A DNA stretch of 53,647 nt from NCBI GenBank assembly GCA_017547845.1, contig JAFYNZ010000023.1, positions 1 through 53,647 of the forward strand, written 5' to 3'. A program made the translations under genes and the position numbers. This DNA comes from Muribaculaceae bacterium (GTDB lineage Bacteria; Bacteroidota; Bacteroidia; Bacteroidales; Muribaculaceae). Within the stretch, counting starts at the first letter, position 1. Every line of letters starts with the position of its first letter. The notes below the pieces were generated by a model, which saw nothing but the letters and a program-made list of their open reading frames with translations, did no database searches and had not been told where the DNA came from. Shown one piece after another: positions 39,640 through 53,647 of this stretch.

Positions 39640-41097
39640 ATGGAAGTAAAAGATTTGAAGCCAGCTTTGATCTGGCAATGCTTTGACGAAATTACTAAAG
39701 TGCCTCGTCCTTCATGCCATGAAGAACAAATCAGAGAATACCTTCTCGACTTTGCTAAGAAGAACAATATCGAAGCAAAGACAGACGATTGTGGCAACGT
39801 TGTGATGACTAAGGCTGCAACTGCAGGTTGCGAAAATGCTCCTACTGTGATCCTCCAAGCTCACATGGACATGGTGGCAGAAAAGAACAACGATGTTGAA
39901 CACGATTTCCTTAAGGATCCTATCCAAACTTATATCGATGGCGAATGGGTGAAGGCTAAGGGTACAACTCTCGGTGCTGACAACGGTATCGGTATGGCCG
40001 GTGCACTCGCTGTGCTTTTGGACAACACTTTGGAACACGGTAAGGTGGAATGCCTCTTCACTATCAACGAAGAAATCGGTCTCGAAGGTGCTCAAAACCT
40101 CGGTAAGGACATGATCACAGGCTCTATGCTCATCAACCTCGACTCTGAAGATGATGGCGAAATCTTCGTAGGTTGTGCAGGTGGTATCGACACTACTGCT
40201 TACTTCAATTACACTCCTATAGCAGCTCCTGAAGACCTTTGCTACGTGAAGGTTGCTATCAGCGGTCTCCTCGGTGGCCACTCTGGTTCTGACATCAACA
40301 CTGGTCGCGGTAATGCCAACAAGCTCATCGCTCGTTTCGTATGGAACATCTCTAAGGATATCGAGCTCAAGCTCGCTTCATTCGACGGTGGCAACTTGCG
40401 TAACGCTATCCCACGTGAAGCACACGCTATCCTTGGTGTAGCTGCTGACAAGAAGGCTGAAATCGAAGCTCGTCTCGCTGAATACACTAAGGAAATCGAA
40501 AACGAATACAAGGGTATCGAGCCAGTAGTGAAATTCACTCTCGAAGCAGTAGAACGCCCAGCATTCATCGTTGACGATGCAACTGCTAAGGCTCTCATCC
40601 TTTCACTCTACTCAGCTCCTCACGGTGTCTACTCTATGAGCCGTGACCTTGAAGGTCTTGTAGAAACTTCTACCAACCTCGCTGCAGTGAAGTTCATCGA
40701 CGGCAACAAGATTAAGGTGACTACTTCTCAACGTTCATCTGTTGAGTCTCGCAAGCACGACATCGCTGCTCAAGTAGAAACTCACTTCTTGCTCGCAGGT
40801 GCTGAAATCGACCACTCTGACGGCTACCCAGGTTGGGCTCCAAACATGGACTCTACTATCATGCGCGTTTGCTCAGAAGCATACGAAGAACTCTACAACG
40901 TGAAGCCTGCTATCAAGGCTATCCACGCAGGTCTCGAATGCGGTCTCTTCCTCGCTAAGTATCCACACCTCGACATGGTGAGCGTCGGTCCTACTATGAC
41001 AGGCGTACACTCTCCGGACGAAAAACTCTACATCCCACACGTAGAAAAGTTCTGGCACCACCTCGCTCTCACCCTCAAGAAAGTGGCTAAACTATGA
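39640..41097 (+). CDS. pepD: Aminoacyl-histidine dipeptidase, first copy
   Basis: Zinc metallopeptidase of family M20C that cleaves Xaa-His and related dipeptides; 485 residues. Metal and catalytic residues are in place: H75 and D77 in QAHMDMVAE, D114 in LGADNGIG, the E144-E145 pair in TINEEIGLEGA, and D168 in INLDSEDDG. The lid domain begins at GGHSGSDIN. No signal peptide, so cytoplasmic. Codon bias is strong, as for a highly expressed gene. Its TGA stop overlaps the ATG of the muramidase (ATGA). Confidence 0.95.
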   Translation: MEVKDLKPALIWQCFDEITKVPRPSCHEEQIREYLLDFAKKNNIEAKTDDCGNVVMTKAATAGCENAPTVILQAHMDMVAEKNNDVEHDFLKDPIQTYIDGEWVKAKGTTLGADNGIGMAGALAVLLDNTLEHGKVECLFTINEEIGLEGAQNLGKDMITGSMLINLDSEDDGEIFVGCAGGIDTTAYFNYTPIAAPEDLCYVKVAISGLLGGHSGSDINTGRGNANKLIARFVWNISKDIELKLASFDGGNLRNAIPREAHAILGVAADKKAEIEARLAEYTKEIENEYKGIEPVVKFTLEAVERPAFIVDDATAKALILSLYSAPHGVYSMSRDLEGLVETSTNLAAVKFIDGNKIKVTTSQRSSVESRKHDIAAQVETHFLLAGAEIDHSDGYPGWAPNMDSTIMRVCSEAYEELYNVKPAIKAIHAGLECGLFLAKYPHLDMVSVGPTMTGVHSPDEKLYIPHVEKFWHHLALTLKKVAKL

Positions 41098-41926: not shown

Positions 41927-43378
41927 ATGAAAGTTACAGATCTCAAGCCGGCATTAATCTGGCAATGCTTTGATGAAATCACTAAAGTGCCTCGTCCTAC
42001 TCACCACCTCGACAAGATGAAAGAGTTTCTCGTGGACTGGGCCAATCGTCATAACATCCCTGTAAAGACCGACGCCGTAGGCAATGTCGTAATGACCAAG
42101 CCTGCTACTCCGGGTCACGAAAACGCACCGACTATCATTCTCCAAGGTCACCAAGACATGGTCGCTGAAAAGCGCAATGACTCCAACCATGATTTCTTCA
42201 ACGACCCTATCGAGACTATCGTTGACGGCGACTGGGTGAAGGCTAACGGCACAACTCTCGGTGCTGACAACGGCATCGGTTGCGCAACCGGCATGGCTGT
42301 TCTCCTTGACGACACTTTGGTGCATGGTCCTATCGAAGTGCTCATGACAGTCGACGAAGAGCAAGGTCTCATCGGTGCAAATGGTCTCGAACCGGGCATG
42401 ATCAGCGGCTCAATTCTTCTCAACCTTGACTCTGAAGAGCATGGTCAACTCGTTATCGGTTGCGCCGGTGGCAAGGTGACTGTCTGCACATATAAGTACG
42501 CTACAGAAGCTGCTCCTGCTGACTACAAATACTTCGACGTTCACATCAACCACATGATGGGTGGTCACTCAGGTATGGAAATCGGTCTCGGTCGTGGTAA
42601 CGCCAACCAGCAACTCGCTCGCTTCATCTGGGAAATGTCGCAGTCTTGCGATGTAGTAGTGTCACGCATCGATGGTGGCAACCTCGCAAATGCTATCCCA
42701 CGCGAAGCTATCGCTACTATCGGTATCCCTGCCGACAAAGAAGCTGAATTGATGGCTTACGCTGCCGAATTCAATAAGACTATCCACTCTGAATTTGCAT
42801 TGGCAGAAAACCCTGACTTCACATTTGATGTCACTGCAGCTGCTACTCCTGCAACCATCATCGACAAGAAGCAATCATCAGCTTTGATCGCTACAATCTT
42901 CGCTACACCTAATGGCGTGCAAGGCATGTCAAACGCTGTGCCGGGCTTGATCGAGACTTCTTGCAACCTCGCAAGCGTCAAGATGCAAGACGACAAGATT
43001 GTCATCACAGTTCACCAACGCTCATCTGTCGACAGCCGTCGTGACGAAATCGCCGACCGCATCAAGGCTCTCTACCAAATGATCGGTTGCGAAGTTATCT
43101 TCGAAGATGCATACGTAGGTTGGGCTCCAAACCCTGAATCAAAGGTATTGAAAGTGGCAGAATCAAGCTTCTTCGACCTCTTTGGCGAAAAGCCACGCGT
43201 TGAAGCCCTCCACGCAGGTCTCGAGTGTGGCCTCTTCCTCGAAAAGATGCCTAACCTCGACATGATTTCGTTTGGTCCTACTCTCAAGGATATCCACTCT
43301 CCAAGCGAAAAGGCCAACATCCCTTCAGTCGCTAAATACTGGGAGCTCCTCACCGAAATCCTCAAGCGCTTGGCTTAA
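41927..43378 (+). CDS. pepD: Aminoacyl-histidine dipeptidase, second copy
   Basis: 483 residues, a close paralogue of the first copy, with the same opening pattern (LKPALIWQCFDEITKVPRP) and the same residue numbering for H75, D77, D114, E144-E145 and D168. Differences cluster around the substrate pocket: QGHQDMVAE instead of QAHMDMVAE, TVDEEQGLIGA instead of TINEEIGLEGA, and another lid sequence (GGHSGMEIGLG). Both copies look catalytically intact, so different dipeptide preferences are likely. A hairpin follows the stop. Confidence 0.94.
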   Translation: MKVTDLKPALIWQCFDEITKVPRPTHHLDKMKEFLVDWANRHNIPVKTDAVGNVVMTKPATPGHENAPTIILQGHQDMVAEKRNDSNHDFFNDPIETIVDGDWVKANGTTLGADNGIGCATGMAVLLDDTLVHGPIEVLMTVDEEQGLIGANGLEPGMISGSILLNLDSEEHGQLVIGCAGGKVTVCTYKYATEAAPADYKYFDVHINHMMGGHSGMEIGLGRGNANQQLARFIWEMSQSCDVVVSRIDGGNLANAIPREAIATIGIPADKEAELMAYAAEFNKTIHSEFALAENPDFTFDVTAAATPATIIDKKQSSALIATIFATPNGVQGMSNAVPGLIETSCNLASVKMQDDKIVITVHQRSSVDSRRDEIADRIKALYQMIGCEVIFEDAYVGWAPNPESKVLKVAESSFFDLFGEKPRVEALHAGLECGLFLEKMPNLDMISFGPTLKDIHSPSEKANIPSVAKYWELLTEILKRLA

Positions 43379-44272: not shown

Positions 44273-45916
44273 TTATCTACCGCAGACAGGCCATGGCTTG
44301 AGCTGCTTAAAGAAGTCGTTGCCCTTATCATCAACGAGGATGAATGCAGGGAAGTTTTCAACGCGGATTTTCCACACAGCTTCCATACCGAGTTCTGGGT
44401 ATTCTACGCATTCGATTGACTTGATATTGTCTTGAGCCAATACCGCCGCAGGACCACCGATTGAGCCGAGGTAGAAACCACCATGCTTGTGACAAGCATC
44501 TGTCACTTGCTGGCTACGGTTGCCCTTCGCAATCATAATCAACGAGCCACCTGCTGCTTGGAATGGATCTACATATGGGTCCATGCGTTGCGCAGTAGTT
44601 GGGCCCATTGAGCCGCAAGGCATACCTGCAGGAGTCTTAGCAGGACCTGCATAGTATACAGGGTGATTCTTGAAGTATTCAGGGAGACCATCGCCTGATG
44701 TGAGGCGTTCGAAGAGCTTAGCGTGAGCGATGTCGCGAGCTACGATGATTGTACCGCTCAAAAGCACGCGTGTTGACACAGGATATTTTGACAACTCTTT
44801 GCATACGTCGCGGATAGGTTGATCCAAATCGATGTGAATAGCATCGCCTTCGCCTGCTTGACGCAATTCTTCAGGGATGAGTTCGTATGGTTTGTCATCA
44901 AGTTTTTCGATCCAAAGACCATGCTTGTTGATCTTGGCCTTGATGTTACGGTCGGCCGAACAGCTCACACCCATACCGACAGGGCAAGAACCACCATGGC
45001 GAGGGAGACGGATTACGCGAATATCGTGGCAGATATACTTACCACCGAATTGAGCACCAAGACCGATGCGTTGTGCTTCTTCTGTGAGAATCTTTTCAAG
45101 TTCTACATCACGGAATGCGCGACCTGTTTCGTCGCCTGTAGTAGGAAGATTGTCGTAGAAGTGAGTTGAAGCCATCTTCACAGTCAAAAGGTTGCGTTCA
45201 ACACTTGTGCCACCTACTACGAATGCAATGTGGTAAGGTGGACAGGCAGCTGTACCGAGCGACTTAATCTTATCTACGCAAAATGGAATCAATTTCTCAG
45301 GATTGAGCAATGCCTTAGTCTCTTGGTAGAGGTAAGTCTTGTTGGCAGAACCACCACCCTTAGCGATGAACAAGAATTTGTACTCATCACCCTCTTCAGC
45401 GTGGATATCGATTTGAGCAGGGAGGTTGCAACGAGTGTTGACTTCATCATACATTGTCAACGGAGCATTCTGCGAGTATCTCAAATTTTCTTGAGTGTAG
45501 ACATTGTAGACACCTCTTGACAATGCTTCTTCATCGCAGCAATCAGTCCATACACGTTGACCCTTTTCGCCGTGGATGATAGCTGTACCGGTATCTTGGC
45601 AGATTGGCAATTGACCCTTGCTTGCTACTTCAGCGTTGCGGAGCATTGACAAAGCGACATATTTATCGTTGTCAGAAGATTCCGGGTCATGGAGGATCTT
45701 AGCCACTTGCTCGTTGTGAGCACGACGCATGTGGAACGACACATCGTAGAAAGCTTGTTGTGTCAAACGTGTCAAAGCTTCAGGAGAGACCATAAGAATC
45801 TCTTTGCCATTGAACTCGCTGACAGAGACACCTTCACTTGTCAAAAGATAATATTCTGTTTCATCCTTTCCGGTCTGAAACATTGGAGCATACTTAAATT
45901 CAGGTACACCAGCCAT
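44273..45916 (-). CDS. Class I (iron-sulfur) fumarate hydratase, candidate mesaconase
   Basis: 547 residues, both domains of the oxygen-sensitive class I enzyme. Likely [4Fe-4S] ligands are C106 ([12 protein letters not shown]), C225 ([10 protein letters not shown]) and a Cys in [14 protein letters not shown] (C311 or C319). The C-terminal domain carries [15 protein letters not shown]. It interconverts fumarate and malate. Class I fumarases, including those of E. coli, also hydrate mesaconate to citramalate. Because the gene is divergent, by 224 bases, from the methylaspartate operon whose product is mesaconate, it may do both. This type is also the ordinary fumarase of Bacteroidales, so a housekeeping role alone is equally possible. 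Confidence 0.95.
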
Positions 45917-46140: not shown

Positions 46141-46551
46141 ATGGATAAGAAAACTATTGTAATCGGAGTAATTGGTGCTGATGCGCATGCGGTCGGCAAC
46201 AAAATCATTGATTTAACACTCACAAACGAAGGTTTCAACGTTGTAAACCTCGGCGTGATGGTATCACAAGAAGAGTTTATCGAAGCTGCTGTCGAAACTA
46301 ATGCCGATGCTATCCTTGTATCATCACTTTATGGTCACGGTGAAATCGACTGTATGGGCCTTCGCCAAAAGTGTGACGAAGCAGGTCTTGTAGGTCTTCC
46401 TCTCTTCGTAGGTGGTAACCTCGTTGTAGGTAAGCAAGAATTCGACGATGTGAAGCAACGCTTCCTCAACATGGGCTTCGACTTCGTATACCCACCAAGC
46501 ACTCCTATCGAAAATACTATCGTAGATATTAAGAAAACTTTAGGTATCTAA
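46141..46551 (+). CDS. glmS: Glutamate mutase (methylaspartate mutase) S subunit
   Basis: Small cobalamin-binding subunit of the B12 enzyme that rearranges L-glutamate to (2S,3S)-3-methylaspartate; 136 residues. The base-off motif DxHxxG is D14-A-H16-A-V-G19, where His16 coordinates cobalt. SSLYGHGE and GGNLVVG complete the nucleotide-tail pocket. It is the first gene of the operon, 15 bases ahead of glmL. The symbol is shared with the unrelated aminotransferase gene at 13506. Confidence 0.97.
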
Positions 46552-46566
46552 TCAATACTTAAGACA

Positions 46567-47970
46567 ATGAAGATTCTAACGGTTGATGTAGGCAGCACTT
46601 ACACTAAGCTGACAGCAATCGATAGCGATAGACGTTCTGTTTTAGGTACTGCACAAGCTTTTACCACTATTGAGACAGATGTGATGCAAGGATTCGAAAC
46701 AGCCCTTGCTCTACTCAAGCAAAACCTTGAGAACGACAACATCTCTGATTTCAATTACGATAAATTGCTCGTGTGCAGTTCCGCTGCAGGAGGTCTCAAA
46801 ATGGTTGCATTGGGATTAGTGCCTGACCTTACGGCTAAAGCCGCAAGGACAGCAGCATCTAATGCCGGTGCAAAAGTCGTTAATACATACGCCTACGAAA
46901 TCAGTAACGCTGAGCAGCAAGAGATTTACGACATCAACCCCGACCTTGTGCTACTTTGTGGTGGCACTGATGGTGGCAACAAAGAGGTCATCATAGCCAA
47001 CGCTCATCGCCTCTGTGCCATCGATCGCCAATTCACCACAGTCGTTGCCGGCAACAAAAGCGCTGCTGACGAAATCGCTGAGATTTTCTCCCAAGCAGGC
47101 AAAAACTTTGTCATCACCGAAAACGTGATGCCGGTATTCAACAGACTCAACATCGAGCCTGCTCGCGATGCCATCAGAAACGTTTTCATCTCTCGCATCA
47201 TCGAAGCCAAGGGGCTCAACAAGATCCAAGCTATGGCTGCTGCGGAAATCATTCCGACTCCGCTCGCTGTGCTCAACGCTTGCGAACTCCTAAGCAAAGG
47301 CACTAAGTCGCAGCAAGGCAAGGGCGACCTTCTTGCTGTAGATATAGGTGGCGCAACTACTGACGTCTACTCTATGGCTTCCGGCCTTCCGACTGTCGAC
47401 AACACTATGACTAAGGGTCTCCCTGAGCCATGGAGCAAACGCACTGTCGAAGGAGACTTGGGTATGAGATACAGTCTCAAGCATGTCTATGATCAGCTCC
47501 CAAGCCACAACCCTGATGACGAGAAAATGCGTGAAGTCAAAGAGTGGGTAGAACTATGCTCGGCTAAGCCCGACACATTGGCTTTGCCGGACTCTGAAGA
47601 AGAAAAGATTGAAGAGTTTCTCGGTCAGTCGGCTGTCTCGATAGCTGTCGAACGCCACTGCGGAAAATTTGCCGACGTCTACACTCCTCTCGGATTGATG
47701 CACACTCAAGAAGGCAAAGACCTTATGGAAGTGCCTACCGTAATCGGTATCGGAGGCGTGCTCCGCAATAGCCGTCACCCTAAAGAAATCCTCAAAGGCG
47801 CGCTCTATAGCTTCACCTCTCCGGAAAGCACCAAACCAAAGAATCCTCATTTCTATCTTGACCAAAGATATATTTTTGCATCAATGGGTCTATTGAGCTA
47901 TCTCGATCCCGAACTTGCATTCGAATTGCTCGACAAAGAGACCGTCGGTCTCGGCAAAGCAGGCGAATAA
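46567..47970 (+). CDS. glmL: Glutamate mutase accessory protein GlmL (MutL)
   Basis: 467 residues, an ASKHA-fold ATPase. Phosphate loop 1 is VDVGSTYTKL (6-15) and phosphate loop 2 is VDIGGATTDVYS near residue 258. Between the two mutase subunits in most such operons lies this protein, thought to reactivate the enzyme by exchanging damaged cobalamin. It is not the DNA mismatch-repair MutL. It lies between the S and E subunit genes with gaps of 15 and 52 bases. Confidence 0.95.
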   Translation: MKILTVDVGSTYTKLTAIDSDRRSVLGTAQAFTTIETDVMQGFETALALLKQNLENDNISDFNYDKLLVCSSAAGGLKMVALGLVPDLTAKAARTAASNAGAKVVNTYAYEISNAEQQEIYDINPDLVLLCGGTDGGNKEVIIANAHRLCAIDRQFTTVVAGNKSAADEIAEIFSQAGKNFVITENVMPVFNRLNIEPARDAIRNVFISRIIEAKGLNKIQAMAAAEIIPTPLAVLNACELLSKGTKSQQGKGDLLAVDIGGATTDVYSMASGLPTVDNTMTKGLPEPWSKRTVEGDLGMRYSLKHVYDQLPSHNPDDEKMREVKEWVELCSAKPDTLALPDSEEEKIEEFLGQSAVSIAVERHCGKFADVYTPLGLMHTQEGKDLMEVPTVIGIGGVLRNSRHPKEILKGALYSFTSPESTKPKNPHFYLDQRYIFASMGLLSYLDPELAFELLDKETVGLGKAGE

Positions 47971-48022
47971 CCCATTGCATCAGACAACTAAATTGAAATA
48001 AACGAAATAACAATATAACATC

Positions 48023-49477
48023 ATGTCAACAGAATTAAAGAACCAAAGAATTTCGGAAGCCGACTTCATGGCGGAACGCGCAGAAGTTCTTCAACAATGG
48101 CCTACCGGTAAAGACATCGATTTCAAAGAAGCAGTAGACTATCAATTGTCTATCGCTCCTGAAAAGCGTTTCGGTGAAAAATTGGCTAAGGCTCAAAAAG
48201 AAGGTGTGACTCTCATTCAGCCACGTGCCGGTGTTGCTCTCTACCAAGAACACATCGAATTGCTCCAATACCTTGAAAACAAGGGTGGCGCTGACCTTCT
48301 CCCTACTACTATCGATAGCTACACTCGTCTCAACCGTTACAACGAGTGCCAAGTAGGTATCGAAAAGAGCCAAGAAGCTGGTCGCTCAATGTTGAATGGT
48401 TTCCCTGCTGTAAACTACGGTGCACAAGTTTGCCGCACAGTGACTTCAGCTGTTAAGAACCCTGTTCAGATGCGCCACGGTACTCCAGACGCTCGTCTGC
48501 TTACTGAAATCGCAATCGCCGGTGGTTTCACTTCTTACGAAGGTGGTGGTATCTCTTACAACATCCCTTACTCTAAGAACCACTCTATCGAAAAGACTAT
48601 CAAGTACTGGCAATATGCCGACCGTCTTGTAGGTATGTACGAAGAAGCTGGTGTAAGCATCAACCGCGAACCATTCGGTCCGTTGACTGGTACTCTCATT
48701 CCTCCATGTATCTCCAACTCTGTAGCAATCATCGAAGCTCTCTTGGCTGCTACTCAAGGCGTAAAAGACATCACTGTAGGTTATGGCCAAATCGGTAACC
48801 TTATCCAAGACGTTGCCGCTATGCGTTCACTCGAAAACATGACTCGCCAATACCTCGCAAAATACGGTTTCAACGACGTTCGCGTTACAACAGTATTCCA
48901 CCAATGGATGGGTGGCTTCCCACAAGACGAATCTAAGGCTTATGGCGTTATCTCTTGGGGTTCGGCTGCTGCTGCATTGTCAAAGGCTACTAAGGTTATC
49001 GTTAAGACTCCTCACGAAGCTTACGGTGTGCCTACTAAGGAAGCTAATGCTGCAGGTCTTAGAGCTACTAAGCAAGTCATCTCTATGCTCCGCGACCAAG
49101 ACCTCCGCGAAATCCCTCACGTTGTAAAGGAATGCGAAATCATCAACGCTGAAGTGAAGTGCATCATGGACGCTGTCGAAGAACTCGGTAAGGGCGACAT
49201 CGCAATCGGTACAGTTGCTGCATTCGAAGCAGGCATCCTCGATATCCCATTCGCTCCTAACAAGTACAACGCCGGCAAGGTGCTCCCTGCTCGCGACAAC
49301 GATGGCGCTATCCGTATCCTCGAAATGGGCAACCTCCCATTGACAAAAGAAATCAAGGACTTCCACCGCGCGAAACTCGAAGAACGTGCTAAATTCGAAA
49401 ACCGCCAAGTATCATTGCAAATGGTAATCGACGACGTTAGCGCAATCGAAAAGGGTAGACTCGTAGGCCGTCCATAA
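48023..49477 (+). CDS. glmE: Glutamate mutase (methylaspartate mutase) E subunit
   Basis: Catalytic TIM-barrel subunit that binds glutamate and, with the S subunit, adenosylcobalamin; 484 residues, as in clostridia. Conserved stretches include [43 protein letters not shown] and [13 protein letters not shown]. They carry the arginines and Glu known to hold the substrate. Codon bias is strong, so the pathway is probably highly expressed. The next gene makes the following enzyme. Confidence 0.97.
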
Positions 49478-49505
49478 TTTTAACAACATCTAAAACATAT
49501 ATAGT

Positions 49506-50744
49506 ATGAAAATCAAGAAAGTGGTTTGTTCTGCCGGAAAGACAGGTTTCTATTTCGACGACCAAAAAGCAATCAAAGCCGGAGCTAAAAACGACGGTAA
49601 CTTCTATGTAGGTGAGCCAATGACTCCTGGTTTTACTTCAGTAAGACAAATGGGCGAATCAATCTCTGTAATGTTCATCCTCGAAGACGGACAAGTAGCA
49701 TTCGGCGATTGTGCAGCTGTTCAATACTCAGGTGCAGGTGGTCGTGACCCATTGTTCCTCGCTAAGAACTTCATCCCTGTAATCGAAAAAGAAATCGCTC
49801 CTCTCTACGAAGGTCGCGAAATCACAACATTCCGTGAACTCGCTGACATCGTTGATAAGATGGAATCTCCTTCTACAGGCAAAGTTTACCACACTGCTAT
49901 CCGTTACGGTGTGTCACAAGCATGTCTTGACGCTGTAGCTAAGAGCCAACACAAGATCATGGCGGAAGTTATCGCTGAAGAATATGGCACTCAAGTTAGC
50001 GACACTATGATTCCTATCTTCACTCAATCAGGTGACGACAGATACATGAACGCTGACAAGATGATCATGAAGGGTGCTGCTGTATTGCCTCACGCTCTCT
50101 TCAACCACGTTGAAGAAAAAGTTGGTCTCAAGGGTGAAAAGATTGAAGCTTACATCGAATGGCTCCGCAACCGCGTACTCGAACAAAAACCATTTGAAGA
50201 CTACAACCCAATCTTCCACATCGACGTATATGGCACACTCGGTCTTGTATTCGACAATGACTTCGAAAAGATCGCAGAATACATCTACGGCCTTGAAAAG
50301 ATCGCTGCTCCATTCCACCTTCGCGTAGAAGGACCAGTAGATATGGGCGAAAAGCAAGCTCAAATCGAAGCATTGGCTGCTATCCGTCGCTTCATGGAAG
50401 AAAAGGGCTCTAAGGCTGAAATCGTTGCTGACGAATGGTGTAACACATTCGAAGACGTTATCGACTTCACTAAGGCTAAGGCTGGTCACATGGCTCAAAT
50501 CAAGACTCCTGACTTGGGTGGTATCAACAACTCTATCGAAGCTGTACTCTACTGCCGTCAAAACGGTATGGGTGCTTACCTCGGTGGTACTTGCAACGAA
50601 ACCAACCGCTCAGCTGAAGTGTGCGCTCACGTAGCAATGGCTACTCAACCAAAACAATACCTCGCTAAGCCTGGTATGGGTGTTGATGAAGGCTACATGA
50701 TCGTATTCAACGAAATGTCTCGCATCCTCGCATTGAAAAAATAA
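49506..50744 (+). CDS. mal: Methylaspartate ammonia-lyase
   Basis: Enolase-superfamily enzyme that removes ammonia from 3-methylaspartate to give mesaconate; 412 residues, one fewer than the clostridial enzyme. Magnesium ligands D240 (FHIDVYG), E275 (RVEGPVD) and D309 (VADEWC), the general base K333 (QIKTPDLGG) and H196 (LPHALF) all correspond to the known residues with an offset of two. Third enzymatic component of the operon. A 100-base gap with a hairpin separates it from the AtuA-like gene. Confidence 0.97.
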   Translation: MKIKKVVCSAGKTGFYFDDQKAIKAGAKNDGNFYVGEPMTPGFTSVRQMGESISVMFILEDGQVAFGDCAAVQYSGAGGRDPLFLAKNFIPVIEKEIAPLYEGREITTFRELADIVDKMESPSTGKVYHTAIRYGVSQACLDAVAKSQHKIMAEVIAEEYGTQVSDTMIPIFTQSGDDRYMNADKMIMKGAAVLPHALFNHVEEKVGLKGEKIEAYIEWLRNRVLEQKPFEDYNPIFHIDVYGTLGLVFDNDFEKIAEYIYGLEKIAAPFHLRVEGPVDMGEKQAQIEALAAIRRFMEEKGSKAEIVADEWCNTFEDVIDFTKAKAGHMAQIKTPDLGGINNSIEAVLYCRQNGMGAYLGGTCNETNRSAEVCAHVAMATQPKQYLAKPGMGVDEGYMIVFNEMSRILALKK

Positions 50745-50844: not shown

Positions 50845-52203
50845 ATGAAAGAAATTCGCGTATTATCACCGACAGCCATCCTCGGTTACGGCTTCCCTGA
50901 AGAATCATTCATCGAGGGTATGCGTCGCAAACCACACGTTATCGCAGTAGACGCTGGTTCAACTGACCCAGGTCCATACTACCTTGGCGCAGGATACTCT
51001 TTCACCGATCGCAACGCCGTTAAACGCGACCTCGCAATCATGATTCCTGCTGCCCTCGAAGCCGGCATTCCGGTCATGATCGGTACAGCAGGCGGTAGCG
51101 GTGCTCGCCCTCACGTAGAAGAGACAGTAGATATCATCAAAGAAATCGCAAGCGAGCAATCTCTCCACTTCAAATTAGTTATCCTCCAATCTGAATTCGA
51201 AAAAGAATTCGTCAAAGAAAAAATCCGCAAAGGCGACATCATGCCTCTCGGCCCGGTTGACGAACTCAAAGAGTCAGACGTAGACGAATCAATCCACATC
51301 GTAGCTCAGATGGGTGAAGAGCCATTCATCAAAGCCCTCGAAAGCGGTGCAAACGTAATCCTCGCCGGTCGTAGCTACGACCCATGCGAATTCTCTGCTC
51401 TCGCTATCCAACAAGGCTTCGACAAAGCATTGGCTATCCACATGGGTAAAATCCTTGAATGTGCTGCCATCACAGCCCTCCCAGGTAGCGGTAGCGACTG
51501 TATGCTCGGCACACTCAGAGAAGACAGCTTCGTAGTTGAGCCACTCAACCCTATCCGTAAGTGTACAGCTCTCTCAGTAGCAGCTCACTCACTCTACGAA
51601 AAGTCTAACCCATACATCCTCCCTGGCCCTGGTGGTGCTCTCGACCTTCACGAGACTAAATTCAACCAACTCTCAGACACTCAAGTAGAAGTAAGCGGTA
51701 CTAAATTCATCCCTACAGAAGAATACTTCGTTAAACTCGAAGGCGTTCGTCGCGTAGGCTATCGCACAATGTCACCTGCTGCAACTCATGACCCAATCAT
51801 GATCTCGCAAATCGATACAATCATCGAAAAGGTGCGTGAACGCGTTATCGACAACTTCCGCAACTCAGGCATGAAAGACTTCTACCTCGACTTCAAGATC
51901 TATGGTAAGAAGGGTGTGATGAACATGTTCCCTAAGACAGCAGATTCAACATCTGACGAACTTCTCATCATCATCGAAGCTGTAGCACCAACACAAGAAC
52001 AAGCCAACACCATCTGCGGTTTCGCTCGCTCTACAATGCTCCACTACGGCTACGAAGGACGTATCTCAACTGCCGGAAACCTCGCATTCCCATTCTCACC
52101 AAGCGACTGCAAAATGGGCGCAGTATACGAATTCAACGTATATCACCTCATGCGCATCGAAGACACATGCGAACCATTCCCAATGTCATTCATTGAATTC
52201 TAA
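50845..52203 (+). CDS. AtuA-like protein (DUF1446 family)
   Basis: 452 residues from the ATG at 50845; a frame open from 50809 would add 12 residues overlapping the hairpin and is not preferred. It shows the family's Gly-rich motifs VDAGSTDPGPYYLG (35-48), GTAGGSGARPH (80-90) and AGRSYDPCEF near 175. AtuA of Pseudomonas belongs to acyclic terpene use, but its reaction is unproven, and relatives occur in many fermenters. Here it ends the methylaspartate operon with the DUF4387 gene. A role after mesaconate, for instance on citramalate or its thioester, is inference. Codon use differs a little from the upstream genes (more AAA for Lys). Confidence 0.85.
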   Translation: MKEIRVLSPTAILGYGFPEESFIEGMRRKPHVIAVDAGSTDPGPYYLGAGYSFTDRNAVKRDLAIMIPAALEAGIPVMIGTAGGSGARPHVEETVDIIKEIASEQSLHFKLVILQSEFEKEFVKEKIRKGDIMPLGPVDELKESDVDESIHIVAQMGEEPFIKALESGANVILAGRSYDPCEFSALAIQQGFDKALAIHMGKILECAAITALPGSGSDCMLGTLREDSFVVEPLNPIRKCTALSVAAHSLYEKSNPYILPGPGGALDLHETKFNQLSDTQVEVSGTKFIPTEEYFVKLEGVRRVGYRTMSPAATHDPIMISQIDTIIEKVRERVIDNFRNSGMKDFYLDFKIYGKKGVMNMFPKTADSTSDELLIIIEAVAPTQEQANTICGFARSTMLHYGYEGRISTAGNLAFPFSPSDCKMGAVYEFNVYHLMRIEDTCEPFPMSFIEF

Positions 52204-52226
52204 CCCTCTAATTCGTAAGATAAAAC

Positions 52227-52547
52227 ATGGCAAAATACAAATTGACAGAACTTGCATCTGTAATCAGAAGTAAAAACTCAGGTCCTTACGAATTGACATT
52301 CGACGTAATCTTCAAGGACTTCGAGACATTCTACAAAGTCAAAGAAGCTCAAGCTATCAACAAGCAAAACTTCTGCGAAATCTACGGCATTCCAGAAAGC
52401 GACATCTTCCACCTCGTATACTTCGACCCTGCAAAGGCAGTCAAAGTGACAATCCGTCGCCCAATCGCAAGCGGTGCCCTCGGTGAAACAGATGTATACG
52501 GTGCACAACAACACGCACCATTGATGGCATTAGAAATCGAATTCTAA
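52227..52547 (+). CDS. DUF4387 family protein
   Basis: 106 residues, no signal peptide. It has the family pattern LASVIRSKNSGPYELTFDVI near the N-terminus and VTIRRPIASGALGETDVYG near the end. It appears next to AtuA-like genes in many genomes and seems to match the small C-terminal domain present in longer AtuA proteins, so it is probably the second subunit of the AtuA-like enzyme. It lies 23 bases after it. Activity unknown. Confidence 0.85.
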   Translation: MAKYKLTELASVIRSKNSGPYELTFDVIFKDFETFYKVKEAQAINKQNFCEIYGIPESDIFHLVYFDPAKAVKVTIRRPIASGALGETDVYGAQQHAPLMALEIEF

Positions 52548-52568
52548 TCAATAGAATACACCATCTAA

Positions 52569-52599
52569 AAGGGGATGCCTCGCATTGAGACATCCCCTT
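52569..52599 (+). terminator. End of the methylaspartate operon
   Basis: Arms AAGGGGATG and CATCCCCTT (52569-52577, 52591-52599), 21 bases after the DUF4387 stop. The sequence after it (AATCTATC) has no T run, so termination may be inefficient. Confidence 0.6.
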
Positions 52600-53513
52600 A
52601 ATCTATCAAAAAAAATGCTTATTGGCCAAAAGAAACAAATCCGAAAACGTGACTACGCGCATATTACAGCCTAAAAACATAAAAATATACTCGACACCAC
52701 ACTGACCACAAAAAACGAACACAGAAGATCGTAGGCATCTCAAATAAAGTCATAGACAACAAAGCACAACCAATGACAACAAAGCACTTCAACAAAGGCA
52801 AGGAATAGAGCTCAAGACAACTGACTATAACCTACAGAAAAGGAACACCCTCACCATCTCAACTCCTGCATCAATCCTCACCCCCTGCACCCCATCAATC
52901 TCATCTTCACTATCAAACAGCACCCTTATTCCTACGTCAATCACCATCTCCTCTAACAACACGCTACCTTAATCTTATATCAATCTCACAATCACTACGA
53001 TAATATAAATTCGATCTATTCCGTACGCCGTCATCCCATTCTGTCCTTTAGCACTCTTGAATTCCTTTAGGCATTAAGGGCTTTGAGGGCATTGAGACCC
53101 ATCAGTCAGCAAGTGCATCATAGCATCTTCCTCCTCTACCCATTCAACTCCATCCTCGCAGCCCGACCTTACAGCCCTCATGGGCATTTAGAATCGTAAG
53201 TTCATAGATCTTAAACCAGTGATAGCATCGCCATCATCAATCCCTTCATCGCATTTATCCTTTCATTTCAATTTCCATTCCATCATCTAATAGCAGCCCC
53301 ATCTTCCTTTTGAGCATTGAGACCACATAGCTCCTAAACCGGTGATAGCATCTTTCTACTCTACCCACCGACGCATCTTTCCCTTCAATTCCGTCTATTC
53401 TTTCCGTCACACCTATCGCATTGCCCTTGACACTTAGTATTATATCTTCCGCCCCTTCCTCCCTTCTATTCATCTATTGCATCTATGCTATCTATTTCAT
53501 CTATTGTATGTCT
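52600..53513. repeat. Gene-free, G-poor region with degenerate repeats
   Basis: About 900 bases without a recognisable gene. Strand composition is very uneven: in 52861-52920 there are 3 G against 26 C. Three degraded repeat units start with GGGCATTGAG (53087), GGGCATTTAG (53182) and GAGCATTGAG (53312). Units 2 and 3 share TAAACC(A/G)GTGATAGCATC, and units 1 and 3 share TAGCATCTT followed by CTCTACCCA. Nothing in any frame looks coding; a 72-codon minus-strand frame at 53255-53473 consists of translated repeat. Confidence 0.6.
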
Positions 53514-53647
53514 TGTCCTAAAATAGATTGACTTCGGAATTAAACTAAATTCAGTATGAACAATCAAAAAGGAAAGTCCTTTACGGACGAAGAACGGCGA
53601 GCAATTGTACAAGAATATCTAGACCTAGGTCCAGGACGGTGGAAAAA
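53514..53647 (+). mobile_element. Left end of an insertion sequence, cut by the window edge
   Basis: TGTCCTAAAATAGATTGAC begins at 53514, about 40 bases before a transposase-like start codon. I recall similar TG-started ends from IS3-type elements of Bacteroidales. The inserted DNA has a composition unlike the pyrimidine-rich region before it. The exact left boundary and the target duplication cannot be fixed because the right end is missing. Confidence 0.6.
53556..53647 (+). CDS. Transposase N-terminus, partial (OrfA-like)
   Basis: Open from the ATG at 53556 to the window end, 30 codons: MNNQKGKSFTDEERRAIVQE, then YLDLGPGRWK. The 'FTDEERRAIVQEYL' pattern is that of the first helix-turn-helix of IS3-family OrfA proteins. 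Truncated only by the window edge as far as can be seen. Confidence 0.6.
   Translation, partial: MNNQKGKSFTDEERRAIVQEYLDLGPGRWK

Follow-up and report, generated by a model that had tools for sequence, protein, structure and literature searches.

How is citramalate cleaved in a bacterium whose methylaspartate operon contains no citramalate lyase? The question is raised by contig JAFYNZ010000023.1 of a Muribaculaceae bacterium (assembly GCA_017547845.1; the whole stretch of 53,647 nucleotides is called the window), in which glmS-glmL-glmE-mal (46141-50744), a methylaspartate-pathway setting, lie directly 5' of genes for an AtuA-family protein and a DUF4387 protein. We conclude, with a probability of about 0.9, that this pair encodes a citramalate lyase of the CmlAB type with two subunits, the AtuA-family protein (A) and the DUF4387 protein (B). 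The assignment is based on homology, fold, gene order and the absence of other lyases from the assembly, and the activity of the protein itself is thereby predicted. The list of open reading frames (ORFs) and a Pfam scan revealed no gene of the citrate or citramalate lyase type in the operon. Both ORFs of the pair are intact, from ATG 50845 to the stop at 52203 and from ATG 52227 to the stop at 52547, with a spacing of 23 bases. A longer mechanical ORF of the first gene opens at GTG 50809; the alignments of relatives begin at ATG 50845, which was therefore taken as the start. Pfam recognized the AtuA main domain in the 452-residue protein (PF07287, E 3.9e-18, 65.9 bits against a cut-off of 22.8) and the DUF4387 domain in the 106-residue protein (PF14330, E 6.4e-40). 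An earlier note, made from the letters of this DNA, had seen in the pair the end of a pathway operon without citramalate lyase, and the intact frames, the upstream genes and the missing cit genes bear this out.

Both proteins match PDB chains that bear the names citramalate lyase subunit A and subunit B (9erq, 9evf). The identity to 9erq is 56% for subunit A, homologous across nearly the full length, and 47% for subunit B (phmmer E 5.2e-29, residues 3-106 of 106). Among the invariant columns of the families, 81 of 85 in subunit A and 23 of 25 in subunit B are identical in 9erq; three of the remaining four subunit A columns differ and one lies beyond the 9erq letters shown. A PGSGxD stretch of the window-type proteins is present in 9erq as well. 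In a structure search with models of both proteins, 9evf stood clear of the rest and no other entry rose well above background, a result that is no proof of a novel fold. Common to CmlAB and the window are thus the combination of an AtuA-family subunit A with a DUF4387 subunit B, the fold and nearly all invariant residues. The solved subunits A are 93-94% identical to proteins of E. coli and Salmonella over 288 residues, and in the enterobacterial clusters seen, the pair follows glmS-glmL-glmE-mal as in the window. The clusters differ in their surroundings: the fumarase gene is located downstream in the enterobacteria, but upstream and divergent in the window, and the enterobacterial transporter, glutaminase and cobO genes were not found in the window operon. 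The enterobacterial cluster was described in 2015 with a DUF1446 gene after mal; the excerpted text of that study gives its function as unknown, reports no detectable citramalate lyase activity in citrate-, acetate- or propionate-grown cells, terms the fate of citramalate unclear and ascribes a promiscuous mesaconase activity to FumA, FumB and FumD of E. coli (PMC4682846). The entries 9erq and 9evf point to an answer to this question of the fate of citramalate. A literature search with poor coverage of subscription journals and preprints found no paper on CmlAB. The earlier note had suspected a two-subunit enzyme as an alternative end of glutamate fermentation, acting on mesaconate, citramalate or a CoA ester of these. 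Its idea on the missing last step was right, because the pair matches a two-part enzyme recorded as citramalate lyase; with respect to the substrate, the chain names favor citramalate, and free citramalate is likelier than mesaconate or CoA esters. Its expectation of an undescribed system has to be given up, the enzyme type being already on record in the PDB. New here are the Bacteroidota member of CmlAB, part of the distribution of the enzyme and its exchange with the classical lyase.

Seventy-three related loci were collected by similarity, a sample that gives no measure of frequency. The DUF4387 gene follows the AtuA-family gene in 69 of them, the four misses (L033, L051, L066, L073) being situated at contig ends. 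The PGSGxD stretch occurs in 53 loci, and mal lies directly upstream in 47 of these; when only the 48 loci with 1,200 or more upstream bases are counted, the figure is 45. The arrangement of mal and the pair is therefore more than chance, and the count proposed in the earlier note supports the pathway link. Among the three exceptions in the 48, glmE is encoded elsewhere in the genomes of L020 and L034 and is missing from that of L050. The other 20 loci comprise three hits truncated at contig ends (L058, L067, L073) and a distant group of 17, of which 16 are titled Proteobacteria under various names and one Bacillota. Eight of 28 genomes searched contained glmE; the 20 genomes without it were all 16 of the distant group (0 of 16 with glmE), G335 (L010), G333 (L049), G334 (L050) and G350 (L067). 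In the class of the window the pair is rare, since DUF4387 was present in one of 295 genomes drawn, the window's own. In a tree of 81 rows, 9erq joined the enterobacterial rows, and the window was one of 48 rows, most of them Bacteroidota, in a clade with support of 100/99; several of the deep nodes have long branches and are uncertain. The mal-pair on a contig titled Burkholderiaceae (L010) grouped inside the Bacteroidota and is 82% identical to the window, either by transfer or because the contig is misbinned. Two plasmids, one from Klebsiella and one from Neorhizobium, carry the pair together with class I fumarase and dehydrogenase genes, with no glm genes in the stretch shown, a setting that fits another route into mesaconate and citramalate. 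The Klebsiella pneumoniae plasmid (L078), typed as conjugative and carrying resistance genes, has the pair beside fumarase, aldehyde dehydrogenase and alcohol dehydrogenase genes.

The classical citramalate lyase of glutamate-fermenting Clostridia, CitDEF with CitC, CitX and CitG, serves the same pathway step and is encoded at the same end of the glm-mal operon, but belongs to other protein families; the window has neither its acyl-carrier subunit nor its maturation genes. The window's assembly, 89.8% complete, yielded no CitF, only a partial match of 31.1 bits in an acetyl-CoA hydrolase/transferase protein, and no PF03328 match for an HpcH/HpaI-family (CitE-type) protein. A CitF search in 35 pair-bearing genomes gave a match at E <=0.001 in 17 of them, in 12 partial and under the cut-off; of the five over the cut-off, four were full length (three Prevotella, Terrisporobacter) and the fifth was the acetyl-CoA hydrolase/transferase of the window's assembly. 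Hence 31 of the 35 genomes searched lacked a full-length CitF. In a tree of 11 CitF sequences, which did not include those of G376, G436 and G533, the six glm-linked ones stood apart (100/100) from E. coli citrate lyase and the Prevotella and Terrisporobacter CitF. Neither in the window's assembly nor in the comparison did a citramalate lyase elsewhere coincide with a random association of the pair, the combination that would have spoken against the earlier note.

Among 245 genomes of Clostridia, 14 had a glmE match, 13 of them over the cut-off, and G553, with glmE below it, was dropped. Of these 13, 7 contained DUF4387 and 10 had a CitF match over the cut-off. Five glmE loci end in mal-AtuA-DUF4387 (L127, L128, L129, L133, L138), a sixth such end is apparent across a contig break (L137 and L145), and six glm-mal loci continue into mesAB and citDEF (L130, L131, L132, L134, L135, L136); the thirteenth locus, L139, has a divergent GlmE and is ambiguous. 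The pair and mesAB-citDEF occurred together in none of the 12 clear operons; the final position of this operon is thus filled alternately by lyases from two different families. A strict exclusion of pair and cit genes at the level of genomes was rejected: CitF was present over the cut-off in four of the seven clostridial genomes with DUF4387 (G326, G376, G436, G533), and the exclusion is therefore limited to the 12 operons.

In the proposed pathway, glutamate mutase would convert glutamate to methylaspartate, Mal would release mesaconate and a class I fumarase, in the presumed role of a mesaconase, would form (S)-citramalate. CmlAB would then split citramalate into pyruvate and a C2 unit, with no need of an acyl-carrier subunit or of the CitC/X/G maturation genes of the classical lyase. 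Retro-aldol cleavage with release of free acetate is difficult, a problem that the classical lyase solves by an acetyl thioester on its carrier subunit. The title of 9evf names a complex with ADP and pyruvate, and for the homologue the binding of these two alone is on record. The presence of ADP suggests that the carboxylate is activated by ATP: the CH2-carboxylate of citramalate may be phosphorylated to citramalyl phosphate, and a retro-aldol reaction of this acyl phosphate may yield pyruvate and acetyl phosphate, from which acetate kinase could recover ATP. We give this ATP and acetyl phosphate chemistry about even odds. With the CmlAB assignment, Bacteroidota and Clostridia without citDEF in the glm-mal operon would have an enzyme for the last step of the methylaspartate pathway, the database name 'acyclic terpene utilization AtuA family protein', misleading for the CmlA-type branch, would be corrected, and the other AtuA and DUF4387 branches become open to functional tests.

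Several points weigh against the assignment. The identities to the solved enzyme reach only 56% and 47%, the activity of the window protein is a prediction, and the reaction of CmlAB is known from PDB entry and molecule names only. Acetyl phosphate is a presumed product, and the acetate kinase present in the window's assembly is weak evidence because the enzyme is common (9 of 14 control genomes). Three genomes (G335, G333, G334) have a PGSGxD-type pair and no detected glmE, although in L010 of G335 mal adjoins the pair. The identities leave room for a CmlAB homologue that has shifted to a neighboring C5 acid or CoA ester, e.g., mesaconate or citramalyl-CoA, and is inactive on free citramalate. 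The family probably has further substrates, as the distant branch of 17 loci lacks glmE and has a gene for a TctC-type carboxylate receptor near the pair in nine of the loci, including that of the query. For the window, such a shift is unlikely, given gene neighbors equal to those of the enterobacterial clusters and, shared with 9erq, the PGSGxD stretch and all but a few of the invariant columns. The HpcH/HpaI family is that of citramalyl-CoA lyase as well as of CitE, and its absence from the assembly argues against a CoA-ester route. The assembly is 89.8% complete, which qualifies the absence of cit genes; a classical CitDEF-type lyase in the missing part could cleave citramalate, with the pair as an accessory. 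In two Prevotella relatives (L140, L141; G301, G302) citDEFXCG lies directly beyond the divergent fumarase gene of the glm-mal-pair locus, thus both lyase types can coexist. A classical lyase in the missing part is very improbable, however, in view of the 31 genomes without full-length CitF, the grouping of the other four with citrate lyase apart from the glm-linked clostridial CitF, and the homologous pair itself being named citramalate lyase.

A citramalate lyase of the CmlAB type also has to be set against the family name, which would assign the pair to acyclic terpene utilization. Besides the Pfam name AtuA, this is suggested by the homology of the main domain to fused AtuA proteins encoded in the L071 (Reyranella soli) and L053 genomes (hhalign probability 98.5%). 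The one fused protein that was scanned carries a C-terminal AtuA_ferredoxin domain in place of the separate DUF4387 protein; AtuA_ferredoxin had no match in the 452-residue protein or in the window's assembly, and the neighbors are glutamate mutase and methylaspartase genes, so that a terpene role is scarcely credible. The earlier note had also proposed that DUF4387 is the detached C-terminal part of a Pseudomonas-type AtuA. No sequence similarity was detected between the two (hhalign probability 0.1%, E 0.43, one profile being thin with two sequences), and the derivation was abandoned at the level of profile comparison. Terpene degraders have an acetate-releasing step at 3-hydroxy-3-isohexenylglutaryl-CoA. 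It is a tentative and rather doubtful idea that the AtuA superfamily consists of nucleotide-dependent C-C lyases which convert a carboxylate to an acyl phosphate and split acids with a tertiary alcohol group in a retro-aldol reaction, with release of acetyl phosphate or acetate; the substrates would be citramalate for CmlAB, other branched acids for the proteobacterial TctC-linked branch and 3-hydroxy-3-isohexenylglutaryl-CoA in terpene degraders, with DUF4387 and AtuA_ferredoxin as alternative small subunits or domains.

The features of the locus are listed in Table 1. The divergent placement of the fumarase gene is retained in the relatives L002-L006, L008, L009, L028 and L041. On contig C33 (L094, around 691-2817) the assembly encodes a second single-chain class I fumarase, 72% identical to the first, and one of the two may be specialized as mesaconase.

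Table 1. Features of the pair and its operon in the window. The glm and mal genes were assigned by NCBIfam equivalog models above their cut-offs.
Feature	Position	Strand	Basis or assignment
Single-chain class I fumarase, candidate mesaconase, divergent from glmS	44273..45916	-	PF05681 + PF05683
glmS, glutamate (methylaspartate) mutase subunit S	46141..46551	+	NF002612, TIGR01501 over cut-off
glmL, mutase accessory protein	46567..47970	+	NF040745 over cut-off
glmE, mutase subunit E	48023..49477	+	TIGR01503 over cut-off
mal, methylaspartate ammonia-lyase	49506..50744	+	TIGR01502 over cut-off
AtuA-family protein, 452 aa	50845..52203	+	candidate citramalate lyase subunit A (CmlA type), by homology
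DUF4387 protein, 106 aa	52227..52547	+	candidate citramalate lyase subunit B (CmlB type), by homology
Perfect 9-bp inverted repeat, 13-base loop, 3' of last gene; possible transcript end	52569..52599	+	direct reading

The terminator scan required a loop of at most 8 bases and a T run, therefore the inverted repeat was not in its output. At Rfam gathering scores the window has no B12 riboswitch, before glmS or elsewhere; all five matches are tRNAs. Many glm-mal clusters encode a 314-residue protein without a Pfam match, in which a GDAGSGKSS stretch resembles a P-loop (L076:10868-11812), with relatives in, e.g., L011, L014, L127, L129 and L131, the last a classical-lyase cluster; it was not detected in the nearest relatives of the window (L002-L009). 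Downstream of the pair, about 1 kb (52548-53540) has no listed ORF of at least 80 residues, contains short imperfect direct repeats and has a low G content on the plus strand (117 of 993 bases). Further upstream, two peptidase genes with 53% mutual identity (39640-41097, of the M20 family, and 41927-43378) are located on either side of an N-acetylmuramidase gene.
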